Of a stretch of 28,157 nucleotides of DNA, positions 2,215 through 5,301 are shown piece by piece (position 1 is the stretch's first letter; each line of letters begins with the position of its first letter). Position numbers and translations under genes: made by a program. Origin of the DNA: a virus. Location: positions 1-28,157 of IMG/VR virus record IMGVR_UViG_3300007538_000127. The stretch is one strand, 5' to 3'. The notes below the pieces were generated by a model. It was given only the letters and a program-made list of their open reading frames with translations, ran no database searches and was not told the DNA's origin.

Positions 2215-2269
2215 GGTACTAGGCTTCACAAATTTATGGTAAAATTTTAAGCCCCCTCTATATGCCTCT

Positions 2270-2593
2270 CTAAGGCTCGCTACGCTCGCCCGCCCCATCA
2301 ATGTACCAAGGAGCGGTTAAACGCATCTCAGGGAGGCTCTCAGACGTCTTAGACAACGTTTCCGTGTAAACGGGAGACACCATATCAGGTGGTGGGGGTA
2401 AAACTACCTCCTCCACCGCTTTACTTACCTCATTTTCCACCCGCTCATCAATAATCCACGACTCAATGGAGTAAAGGAGACCCAAAAGAAGGTGGTCTAC
2501 CCAAGGAACACCAGTCTTAAGGGTCTTGTAAGCTGCTTTAAACTCGTTAAGCTTTAATTGTCTTTGTTCCACAGGTCGAGTGGTGTTATTCAT
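2270..2593 (-). CDS. Hypothetical protein downstream of thyX (107 aa)
   Basis: The ATG at 2593 lies 8 bases inside the 3' end of thyX, a coupling overlap typical of this genome. The frame continues upstream to 2737, but that part is only the shadow of thyX. The protein begins MNNTTRPVEQRQLKLNEFKA, has a central hydrophobic helix (VDHLLLGLLYSIESWIID), an acidic segment and a proline run (VVLPPPPDM), and ends GAGERSEP. The last six residues are encoded by a GCGAGC repeat (2276-2290), so the natural C-terminus may have been extended into repeat DNA. No domain is recognised. Position suggests co-expression with thyX, and perhaps early or middle expression. Confidence 0.65.
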   Translation of the reverse strand: MNNTTRPVEQRQLKLNEFKAAYKTLKTGVPWVDHLLLGLLYSIESWIIDERVENEVSKAVEEVVLPPPPDMVSPVYTETLSKTSESLPEMRLTAPWYIDGAGERSEP

Positions 2594-3245
2594 CACGAGA
2601 CCACATCGCCTCCGACACATTAGGTAAGTACTGGTAGAGGAGGTCTTGAACTTGAGAGGCGATGAGGGCGTGTTCTCGCTGGGTACCGTTACTTGTACGA
2701 AGGTCACAATAGTGAAGCCACGACCTAATGGTACCATTCATGTAAAGTTTGGTGGGTGCTGCCATTGGAAGTACTTCCCTTGCACACTCCTTTGCTACCC
2801 CAGCTTCTACCATCTCTTTGTAGAGACCATAACAGTCGGAGTAAAGACTACCTATGCGGAATTGGAAGTTCTTCTTCACTACTTCATCAAGATCGTCGAT
2901 AGAGTTTTGTCGGTTCTTAGTATCTTGACGACGGAGTTGGGGGATAGAGGCTTGTTTCTCCACCTTAGCGTACCTTTGGCTAAACTCTTGGAAACTAAAG
3001 GAACGGTGTCGAAGGATTTGAGCGGCGATAGAACGTGTAGTGTCGATAGAGACACACATGTTCACCATCTCAAAAGGAGACCAATGGTTATGAGTAATGA
3101 GATAACGGATTAGCTTAGCACTCGTCTGAGTGTTTGACTGGTTAGAGGGATTAGACACCCTAGCCATGTAAGCGATAAGGTCTTCAGCTTCGGGGGTAAT
3201 GTGTACGAGTTGAACGCAGTGAGACGAAGGTTGAGCGGTGTGCAT
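2586..3245 (-). CDS. thyX: Flavin-dependent thymidylate synthase ThyX
   Basis: ThyX methylates dUMP to dTMP using methylenetetrahydrofolate, FAD and NADPH, supplying thymidine for phage DNA replication. The signature is intact: RHRSFSFQEFSQRY, beginning near residue 79 of the 219-residue form, contains the RHR-x7-S motif. Upstream, YMARVSNPSNQ and HNHWSPFEM, and downstream LHYCDLRTSNGTQREH, match the family well; the last is the conserved substrate-binding helix region. The length fits short ThyX proteins. I chose the ATG at 3245 because family proteins begin close to it (VQLVHITPEAEDLI). A GTG at 3293 would add 16 residues encoded by repetitive ACC-rich leader. The gene follows the terminase terminator and a palindromic region, so it probably has its own promoter. 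Confidence 0.95.
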   Translation of the reverse strand: MHTAQPSSHCVQLVHITPEAEDLIAYMARVSNPSNQSNTQTSAKLIRYLITHNHWSPFEMVNMCVSIDTTRSIAAQILRHRSFSFQEFSQRYAKVEKQASIPQLRRQDTKNRQNSIDDLDEVVKKNFQFRIGSLYSDCYGLYKEMVEAGVAKECAREVLPMAAPTKLYMNGTIRSWLHYCDLRTSNGTQREHALIASQVQDLLYQYLPNVSEAMWSRDE

Positions 3246-3307
3246 TGGTGGTAAGGTGGTGGTTAATGGTGGTAAGTAACTTACTTCATTCACTTAGTTT
3301 AACAGTA

Positions 3308-3360
3308 TTAACACAGGATAACAAGGGATGATAATATCATCATGTGTTATCACTTGTTAA
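3308..3360. repeat. 53-bp regular imperfect palindrome upstream of thyX
   Basis: The arms pair in three exact blocks separated by symmetric 3x3 mismatches: TTAACA/TGTTAA (6), GATAACA/TGTTATC (7), GATGAT/ATCATC (6), around a 3-base centre AAT. The spacing 6-3-7-3-6-3-6-3-7-3-6 is exact. As DNA it could be a multi-site operator. As RNA it would be one long hairpin, such as an RNase III site. It lies 5' of thyX, about 60 bases before its ATG. Confidence 0.7.
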
Positions 3361-3440
3361 AGTACTTTAAAGGAAGTAGAAAGAGAAGTTTAAAGAAAGT
3401 ACTAAACAGAATGTCCATTCCCGGGGACATTGTCTTTAGT

Positions 3441-3477
3441 AAAAGGGGGAAGGAGAGCTTGTCTCGAGTTCCCCCTT
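3441..3477 (-). terminator. Intrinsic terminator downstream of terL
   Basis: On the minus strand AAGGGGGAA (3477-3469) pairs perfectly with TTCCCCCTT (3451-3443), with a loop that can form an inner GAG/CTC pair, and is followed by T residues (3444-3441). It lies about 100 bases beyond the terL stop and should end the late (structural, lysis and packaging) transcript. The plus-strand reading lacks a T-run of equal quality. Confidence 0.65.
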
Positions 3478-3573
3478 ACCTTTGGCGGTCCACCCTTCCG
3501 CCTCCGGCTATACGGCAGTCATGTTCAAGATCGGTTGGTATGACTTGTGTCTTATTTTGTGTCTTACGTAAGA

Positions 3574-5301
3574 TTAAACCCACGTTGGGATACCATTTTT
3601 ACCCAATCCACGAGCTTGTCTTTTTTGATTTAAAGACATACCTAAGACTATATGATTTGTCTCAGATTGGGGGTCGTCCATAAACGCTTGTAACATGTCG
3701 TTCCACTCTTCACGTTTACGGTCTTTTATTACTTCTTGAGCGGAGATAGCGAGAGCATCTGTGAAGTACTTAACACCTTGAGCTAAGCTATCTAGTCTGT
3801 CGTCGTGTCTAATGGCTCCCTTTTCCCGACACATCCTAGACATTTGGTAGAAGAGCATGTAAAGGAGTCGCTCTTCCGGTGCAGCGTCTGGATTGGACTT
3901 AAAGTCCCACTCGATAACGTTTCTGTCTACAACAAGTCTATGTTGATTTAATACGGGCTCAAGGGTATCAATAATACGGTCTTCTTTACGTACATTAGCA
4001 CGTACCTCCTCAATGTCTATCAGTTGTTGTGTCTGTTGGAGGTGTTTACGGAATAGCTCGGAGACGATACCATCACCAAAGTTCGTTTCAATTACAAGCT
4101 TAGTAACATTGTACTTTTTACAACCTTTAAGGATGTCTAGCAATGTTTTGTCGCTGTAACCGTCACGGTAAGCACGTACTTCGTGGAGGTAAAGGAAACC
4201 ATTCCTCTGTGAGATAAAGGTAGCAGCCGTTTCGTCTGAGCCTCTACCAGATGGGTCTACGGAACAAATAGTTTCTTGGTAGTCGTCCCATTGACCTTGG
4301 ATTTGCATCGGGGAGTAGAAGTAATCCCCAGGTAGACCAACGGTTGGAAGATCTTTGATGACGTTTTGAGGGTCGGAACACCAAACGATACTTTCAGGTG
4401 CTTTAGTTGGGTTAACGCTAGTAACGATAAGGTCAGAGCACTTAAGGGGGAACTTCTCAGCATCACTAAGGGAGGTATCAAGCATGAACTGCAACATAAA
4501 GTTGCTACGTCCCATTGACGCTTCACGTTCTACTAGATCGTCGTTATCAAAACGATCAGGGTCGGTTACACCCCAAGGCTTCGCTCCACCGTCAATATCT
4601 TCAACAAGTTGAGGAGCTAGAAGACCTTCGTATTGGGTAACCTTACGTGGGTAACGTGCTGGCCAAACAAATGGTTTGTAGTTACGTTCTGCTAACTTAC
4701 GGTAAATGGTAAAGGTAGTCTGAGGAGTACCAAGGTACATAATCCTACTATCATTTTTTGGAGTAAGGATTGACTCAGCCTCCGTACAAAGCTGTAGAAG
4801 CTTCTCCCTCATGAACTCTGTCATGGAGTTACCCGGAACCTCAATATCGTCTAGGATCATAAGGTCCGCACGACTACCAGTTAGTTGTCCGGTGATACCA
4901 ACACTTTTAACGGATGGTGCTTGGTGAGGAGGACACTTAATATCAAAGCTAATACGAGACCACCTGGCTGAGTCATCTTGGGGTTGCATATGTTTCAACC
5001 AAGGTGTCTCGATGATTAGCTTCTGTAGGAAGATAGACATGTTATCAGCCCGCTCCTTAGAGGCGGAGATAATCATGATCTTCTTTTCGTTATCTTTAAA
5101 GAGCGTCCAAAGGACGAACGCTCCAGTAATCCAACTTTTACCCACCCCTCGAAACGCTTGAATCTGTAGACGCTTAGGACCGTATTGGAGGTAATCAGCA
5201 ATAGCGTATTGTGCTCGGGTTGGGTGAGGTAGATCTAGTTGAGCCCAAAGAGCTTGTAAGAAGAGCTTAAAATCGTCTCTAAGGAGGTCTAAAGTACTCA
5301 T
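3574..5301 (-). CDS. terL: Terminase large subunit (T7 gp19-like)
   Basis: This is the DNA-packaging motor: an ATPase that docks on the portal and a nuclease that cuts concatemers. At 575 residues it is close to T7 gp19 (586). Seen directly: Walker A-type RGVGKS at residues 51-56; Walker B LMILDD at 146-151, followed by IEV; a motif-III-like LGTPQT near 189; and an RNase H-like nuclease centre with D348 (CSVDPSGRGSDET), E404 (LVIETNFGDG) and the D500/D503 region (RHDDRLDSLAQG). The ATG at 5301 has no Shine-Dalgarno sequence. A 47-base gap separates it from the upstream 403-residue gene. It is the last gene of the late block and is followed by a terminator. The T7-like type predicts genomes with direct terminal repeats. 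Confidence 0.96.
   Translation of the reverse strand: MSTLDLLRDDFKLFLQALWAQLDLPHPTRAQYAIADYLQYGPKRLQIQAFRGVGKSWITGAFVLWTLFKDNEKKIMIISASKERADNMSIFLQKLIIETPWLKHMQPQDDSARWSRISFDIKCPPHQAPSVKSVGITGQLTGSRADLMILDDIEVPGNSMTEFMREKLLQLCTEAESILTPKNDSRIMYLGTPQTTFTIYRKLAERNYKPFVWPARYPRKVTQYEGLLAPQLVEDIDGGAKPWGVTDPDRFDNDDLVEREASMGRSNFMLQFMLDTSLSDAEKFPLKCSDLIVTSVNPTKAPESIVWCSDPQNVIKDLPTVGLPGDYFYSPMQIQGQWDDYQETICSVDPSGRGSDETAATFISQRNGFLYLHEVRAYRDGYSDKTLLDILKGCKKYNVTKLVIETNFGDGIVSELFRKHLQQTQQLIDIEEVRANVRKEDRIIDTLEPVLNQHRLVVDRNVIEWDFKSNPDAAPEERLLYMLFYQMSRMCREKGAIRHDDRLDSLAQGVKYFTDALAISAQEVIKDRKREEWNDMLQAFMDDPQSETNHIVLGMSLNQKRQARGLGKNGIPTWV

Follow-up and report, generated by a model that had tools for sequence, protein, structure and literature searches.

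Gene setting and structure of the palindrome

What is a long, regularly interrupted palindrome doing in the gap between the terL and thyX genes of a cyanophage? The window analysed here, a whole stretch of 28,157 nucleotides, is a fragment of a T7-like cyanophage genome (IMG/VR virus record IMGVR_UViG_3300007538_000127), whose best DNA matches are the Synechococcus phages S-CBP3, S-B28, S-CBP4 and 7B11-B, and whose terL has 81-85% identity to many cyanopodovirus terminases. Its main genes lie on the minus strand in the order terL, gap, thyX. Read in the sense direction, the 280-nt gap holds a phage-RNAP promoter-like site, a hairpin with a GGGTGGACC core, a terminator-like hairpin, an AATGTCC..GGACATT hairpin, the palindrome and a TACTGTTA motif, listed here with the flanking features.

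3574-5301, minus strand: terL (terminase large subunit), upstream of the palindrome
3501-3523, minus strand: phage-RNAP promoter-like sequence CATGACTGCCGTATAGCCGGAGG, predicted phiOR equivalent; at the same place S-B28 has ACACCCGTAAAG and Syn5 has ATTGGGCACCCGTAA
3484-3502, minus strand: hairpin GGCGG-AAGGGTGGA-CCGCC with the conserved core, where the phiOR transcript is inferred to begin
3441-3475, minus strand: terminator-like hairpin GGGGGAA..TTCCCCC-TTTT, after terL
3410-3431, minus strand: short hairpin AATGTCC CCGGGAAT GGACATT, also in the gaps of many relatives
3308-3360, minus strand: interrupted palindrome, candidate fold-back element (mirror check, shuffle controls, folds, homologues at the same site)
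3300-3307, minus strand: TACTGTTA motif abutting the palindrome, promoter-like candidate
2586-3293, minus strand: thyX, downstream of the palindrome, with a GTG start at 3293 or an ATG at 3245
2219-2251, minus strand: predicted right-end cleavage signal ACCATAAATTTGTGAAGCCTAG, from by-eye alignment with the sequence before the terminal repeats of T7, T3, S-TIP37 and P-SSP7

The initial annotation had described a 53-bp palindrome with symmetric 3x3 interruptions at 3308-3360, in non-coding DNA 5' of thyX and near three more inverted repeats. An exact mirror check bore out the layout, the gene map agrees with the placement (thyX downstream, minus strand), and the further repeats were found at 3410-3431, 3441-3475 and 3484-3502. 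Alignments indicate that thyX probably starts at ATG 3245 rather than GTG 3293. On the sense strand the palindrome reads TTAACA AGT GATAACA CAT GATGAT ATT ATCATC CCT TGTTATC CTG TGTTAA; the plus strand is TTAACACAGGATAACAAGGGATGATAATATCATCATGTGTTATCACTTGTTAA, which pairs with its own reverse complement as 6-3-7-3-6-3-6-3-7-3-6. Taken as a DNA palindrome, its inner block is 7 bp and its centre a single base.

The palindrome is far above chance, scoring 15.2 in an ungapped palindrome scan, a value reached by none of 60 dinucleotide shuffles of the whole window (maximum 14.8) and none of 1000 shuffles of the 280-nt gap (maximum 13.6). Its minus-strand RNA fold is -16.2 kcal/mol (z -4.9), and the DNA folds of its two strands are -10.1 and -11.2 (z about -5). 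Being without any 9-base exact seed, it was missed by a default repeat finder. An Rfam search of the palindrome returned nothing at the gathering score, and the sub-threshold matches to snoRNA and miRNA families were taken as chance. The exact pattern of the window's palindrome type had no match in IMG/VR; a half-pattern search found ten stretches, five of which represent one version like that of the window, also in a terL-thyX gap, and five of which are unrelated. The literature search found no paper on such an element in cyanophages, and the palindrome marks a site that cyanophage genome annotation has left unrecorded.

The palindrome does not fit an intrinsic terminator: the stem is A+T-rich and followed by TACTGTTAAAC, in place of a G+C-rich stem with a T run, and a separate terminator hairpin is present at 3441-3475. 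Sigma-70 promoter matches inside the palindrome were dropped, as inspection showed that they are not kept in other versions.

Promoter-like elements of the gap

We predict that the CATGACTGCCGTATAGCCGGAGG site is a promoter and the positional equivalent of T7 phiOR, because ACACCCGTA[AT]A sites follow terL in S-B28 and 7B11-B and recur there at two further places, and because the Syn5 phage promoter, GATTGGGCACCCGTAA (PMC6395800), stands directly after Syn5 terL. The S-B28 genome (L152) has only three such promoter-like sites (reverse-complement positions 1801, 3067 and 6990), one of them within the annotated RNA polymerase gene. The GGGTGGACC core with its complementary flanking arms is strongly conserved, occurring at 3484-3502 of the window and in 162 distinct sequences from relatives.

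On the other side of the palindrome, the TACTGTTA motif fits the TAC[AT]G that adjoins many other palindrome versions, and the CTTATACTACTGTATG of palindrome-free relatives. A conserved CTTATACTACTGTATG-type element, promoter-like in appearance, precedes the last gene in palindrome-free relatives at 79 of 202 loci (e.g. L002, L004 and L020); its ATG does not serve as a start codon in every case, L004 having ATGGACTAA.

Distribution among related phages

For the comparison, DNA downstream of terL was gathered from IMG/VR contigs and public phage records, giving 202 distinct loci, and the gap after terL was searched for a hairpin of three helices with two internal loops of 2-4 bases. Such an interrupted fold occupies the same site in 38 of the 202 loci, a frequency that is biased because part of the set had been retrieved with versions of the palindrome itself as the query, and it is represented by 29 distinct sequences, two or three of them borderline (L251, L123, L270). 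The same search in 360-nt coding stretches gave 1/202 for terL and 0/137 for thyX. In S-B28 and 7B11-B the element shares with that of the window its position in the terL-thyX gap, its architecture and its flanking promoter and terminator, with TAC directly after the palindrome; it differs in its arm sequences and is unannotated in the records. Phage WH11-B carries the element as well. One such intergenic element per genome was found in S-B28, 7B11-B and the window, by a scan of low sensitivity that recovered only one T7 R site.

The fold is missing from the other 164 loci, including the closest terL relatives. Since, in addition, the 79 palindrome-free loci with the linear CTTATACTACTGTATG element, the ones that were folded, have no excess structure at the site (mean z -0.08; a further 84 loci have neither motif nor hairpin), the palindrome is not essential or is replaced. 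The initial annotation had made its case depend on persistence in close relatives that keep the flanking genes and on compensatory changes in the arms. Persistence fails in L004-L006, the closest by terL (91-93% identity), which have no palindrome although their flanking genes are retained; more distant relatives carry it, with compensatory changes.

Two ideas about this distribution were rejected. Regulation specific to thyX fails as several relatives carry another gene downstream of the element, and a complementary distribution, with a palindrome downstream of thyX in relatives without the gap element, gave a weak excess (12% versus 2.8% in shuffles) that was not clean.

Coordinated changes in the arms

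All 14 helix positions tabulated over 18 versions show two to four Watson-Crick pair types, indicating that the arms change together and that the fold, not its letters, is conserved. The spacers stay unpaired while their own letters vary, with mismatches of 2-4 bases persisting across versions. That the block-and-spacer layout recurs at one site in diverged relatives while its arms change in concert supports the earlier suggestion that the regularity reflects selection rather than drift alone. A MAFFT alignment of all versions misplaced the arms of the window, and pairs were therefore counted from each version's own helices, giving 500 Watson-Crick against 15 G-T pairs, counts of sequences and not of independent events.

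When the loci are folded as RNA, G-T pairs make up 2.7% of the pairs in the palindrome; the share is 8.0% in their terminator stems (n = 140) and 12.1% in their phiOR-leader hairpins (n = 162). In this comparison the palindrome versions share ancestry, and the way they were detected was biased towards Watson-Crick pairs. If pairing were the sole constraint, G-U should be tolerated in an RNA hairpin but not in a DNA fold, whichever strand forms it, so the scarcity of G-T pairs points to selection at the DNA level, although it is suggestive only. Several versions have asymmetric spacers (2x3, 3x2 or 3x4 loops); strict dyad symmetry thus appears not to be required, which suits a fold better than a rigid operator.

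Position relative to the genome end

In P-SSP7 the terminal repeat has been mapped experimentally at 206 bp (PMC3350473). We confirmed it as an exact repeat in the sequence, after talC, and in the S-TIP37 record thyX is followed, at a distance of 100 bp, by an exact repeat of 150 bp. Syn5 thyX also lies inside the right end, the Syn5 terminal repeat being, we assume, 237 bp long. The record repeats of S-B28 (127 bp) and 7B11-B (77 bp) are probably assembly overlaps. Visual comparison showed a similar sequence immediately ahead of the repeat in T7 (AAAAATCTGAGTGACTA), T3, S-TIP37 (AAAAATCTCTGAAGCCTAT), S-B28, 7B11-B and the window (ATAAATTTGTGAAGCCTAG). For the window, a right terminal repeat starting near 2218 is predicted. 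If this cleavage signal is right, the small genes below ~2218 would belong to the left end of the linear genome. The palindrome would then stand about 1.1 kb from the predicted repeat in the window, and about 0.8 kb in S-B28 and 7B11-B, or more, with thyX between. A location inside the terminal repeat was rejected, the repeats being beyond thyX or talC.

Comparison with T7 and T3

At the right end of T7 the two best palindromes both fall between phiOR and the repeat. One of them, the interrupted palindrome at T7 39568-39608, is centred 190.0 bp left of the repeat, and its T3 counterpart, 184 bp from the repeat, has the same mismatch pattern, with compensatory changes between the two phages (AG/CT to GT/AC and TGAT/ATCA to TAGT/ACTA). 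Chung, Nardone and Hinkle (1990) reportedly described a hairpin end on T7 concatemers. We take this hairpin to be located 190 bp left of the repeat, and equate it with the T7/T3 palindrome.

The cyanophage element resembles the T7/T3 palindrome in lying between phiOR and the right terminal repeat (a phiOR-like promoter upstream and a repeat signal downstream), in size (48-57 bp against 41-58 bp), in having short helices separated by conserved mismatches, and in arm changes that are compensated while mismatches are kept, as found in both groups. It differs in being without sequence homology to the T7 element, in its distance from the repeat (0.8-1.1 kb or more with a gene between, against 184-190 bp), in its spacers (three helices with mostly 3x3 spacers, against 2x2/1x1/1x1 in T7/T3) and in being missing from most relatives; hairpin ends, published for T7 concatemers, are a prediction for the cyanophage element. 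Since it lacks both the close spacing to the repeat and presence throughout relatives (38/202), we regard it as a possible counterpart of the T7/T3 palindrome and not as a member of the same class.

The Klebsiella phage KMI2 record (L349, MN101216) contains an 84-nt, 100% inverted copy of the T7-type palindrome with its right flank (557-640 and 841-924), the turning point being the palindrome, followed by a 98% direct repeat of 587-836. This may be a hairpin-ended molecule caught in assembly, or an assembly artefact.

A proposed fold-back site for right-end processing

We tentatively favour, at somewhat less than even odds, a reading of the palindrome as a DNA fold-back site for processing the right end of concatemers, because it matches the T7/T3 palindrome in genome interval and size class, is interrupted in a similar layout, is likewise present in a single copy and evolves in the same way. 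A replicating concatemer strand would fold at the palindrome into an interrupted hairpin, which could be an intermediate in duplicating the terminal repeat or in packaging, along the lines proposed for T7. The mismatched spacers might stop the fold from becoming a long perfect cruciform, cut by nucleases and prone to deletion during replication. Among 17 pattern-scan loci no fold-back contigs were found at the palindrome; against a fold-back role, too, the palindrome abuts a promoter-like motif, which fits a regulatory function as well. The origin-like element offered as one guess by the initial annotation comes nearest to this proposed right-end processing fold beside a phiOR-type promoter.

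More doubtful is the broader proposal that these elements form an undescribed class of replaceable fold-back elements at the right-end junction of T7-like cyanophages, with three short helices, obligatory mismatched spacers of 2-4 bases, arms rewritten wholesale between lineages, fixed shape and position, and a DNA-level role in genome-end formation. The way in which terminal repeats are completed as T7-like phages cut their concatemers is still not fully understood (PMC3350473). A shape-conserved fold in the same interval of marine cyanophages and of T7/T3 would allow this step to be approached by comparison, nature supplying many variants of the fold, as well as genomes that lack it, for testing.

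Alternative explanations

The main rival, a serious one though rather unlikely, is an RNA hairpin between the late promoter or terminator and the last gene, acting in RNase III-type processing or mRNA stability (cf. the T7 R sites) or as an attenuator of read-through into thyX. The RNA fold is stable in eight versions (z about -3 to -6), the palindrome follows a phage promoter and precedes a reading frame by 10-60 nt, and compensatory changes suit RNA pairing equally; yet G-T pairs are scarce relative to RNA hairpins of the same loci, most relatives lack the element, and it would be absent from thyX mRNA if that transcript starts at the abutting promoter-like motif. The T7 RNase III sites (R0.3 to R18.5) are likewise intergenic hairpins with internal loops upstream of genes, but they consist of two longer helices (about 9-11 bp) split by one 4x4 or 4x5 loop and number about ten, whereas the cyanophage element has three helices of about 4-8 bp, two loops of 2-4 bases and a single copy, with no series of sites in the low-sensitivity scan. 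The RNase III processing hairpin suggested by the initial annotation is a possible reading, weakened by the scarce G-T pairs and the single copy.

An operator is less likely, and we hold it improbable that the palindrome is a multi-site regulator target overlapping a promoter-like element upstream of thyX, with GAT half-sites about one helical turn apart. Blocks do often begin with GAT at intervals of about 9-10 bp, the right arm runs up to a TTA|TAC[AT]G motif that is promoter-like, and P-SSP7, a related phage, has a gene for a MarR-type DNA-binding regulator (PMC9692554). A protein site, however, would conserve letters, and here mid-helix letters change wholesale with pairing kept (GATATA, GATGAT, GATAACA, TTTAAA, ATTATC): every tabulated position varies across relatives, leaving a weak GAT tendency, a pattern that the multi-site operator of the initial annotation does not explain. 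Asymmetric spacers also break strict dyad spacing in several versions, and there is one giant palindrome in place of repeated dimer sites.

Template switching during replication of quasi-palindromes can match arms without selection, and arms so matched, with the promoter-like right arm as the sole constrained part, would agree with the patchy distribution and with the right arm of L311, still similar to the linear element of palindrome-free relatives (compared with L002), but this seems quite improbable, as switching would erase the 2-4-base spacers too, yet they persist at the same positions with different helices, and the 29 versions occur at one site with almost none in neighbouring DNA.

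Other palindromic sequences were seen in the same loci. The terL-thyX gap of L117 has a very A+T-rich nested palindromic tract at 4982-5087 (TTAGTTAGCTTATTAATTAAACTAATTAAG...). Interrupted hairpins of a second family, exemplified by CTACA CT GAGGGG..CCCCTC TC TGTAG, lie some 1.8-2.8 kb downstream of terL, where the left-end early region is expected (L007 7055-7102, L032 6321-6366, L068 6550-6593; also L005, L053, L056 and L058).
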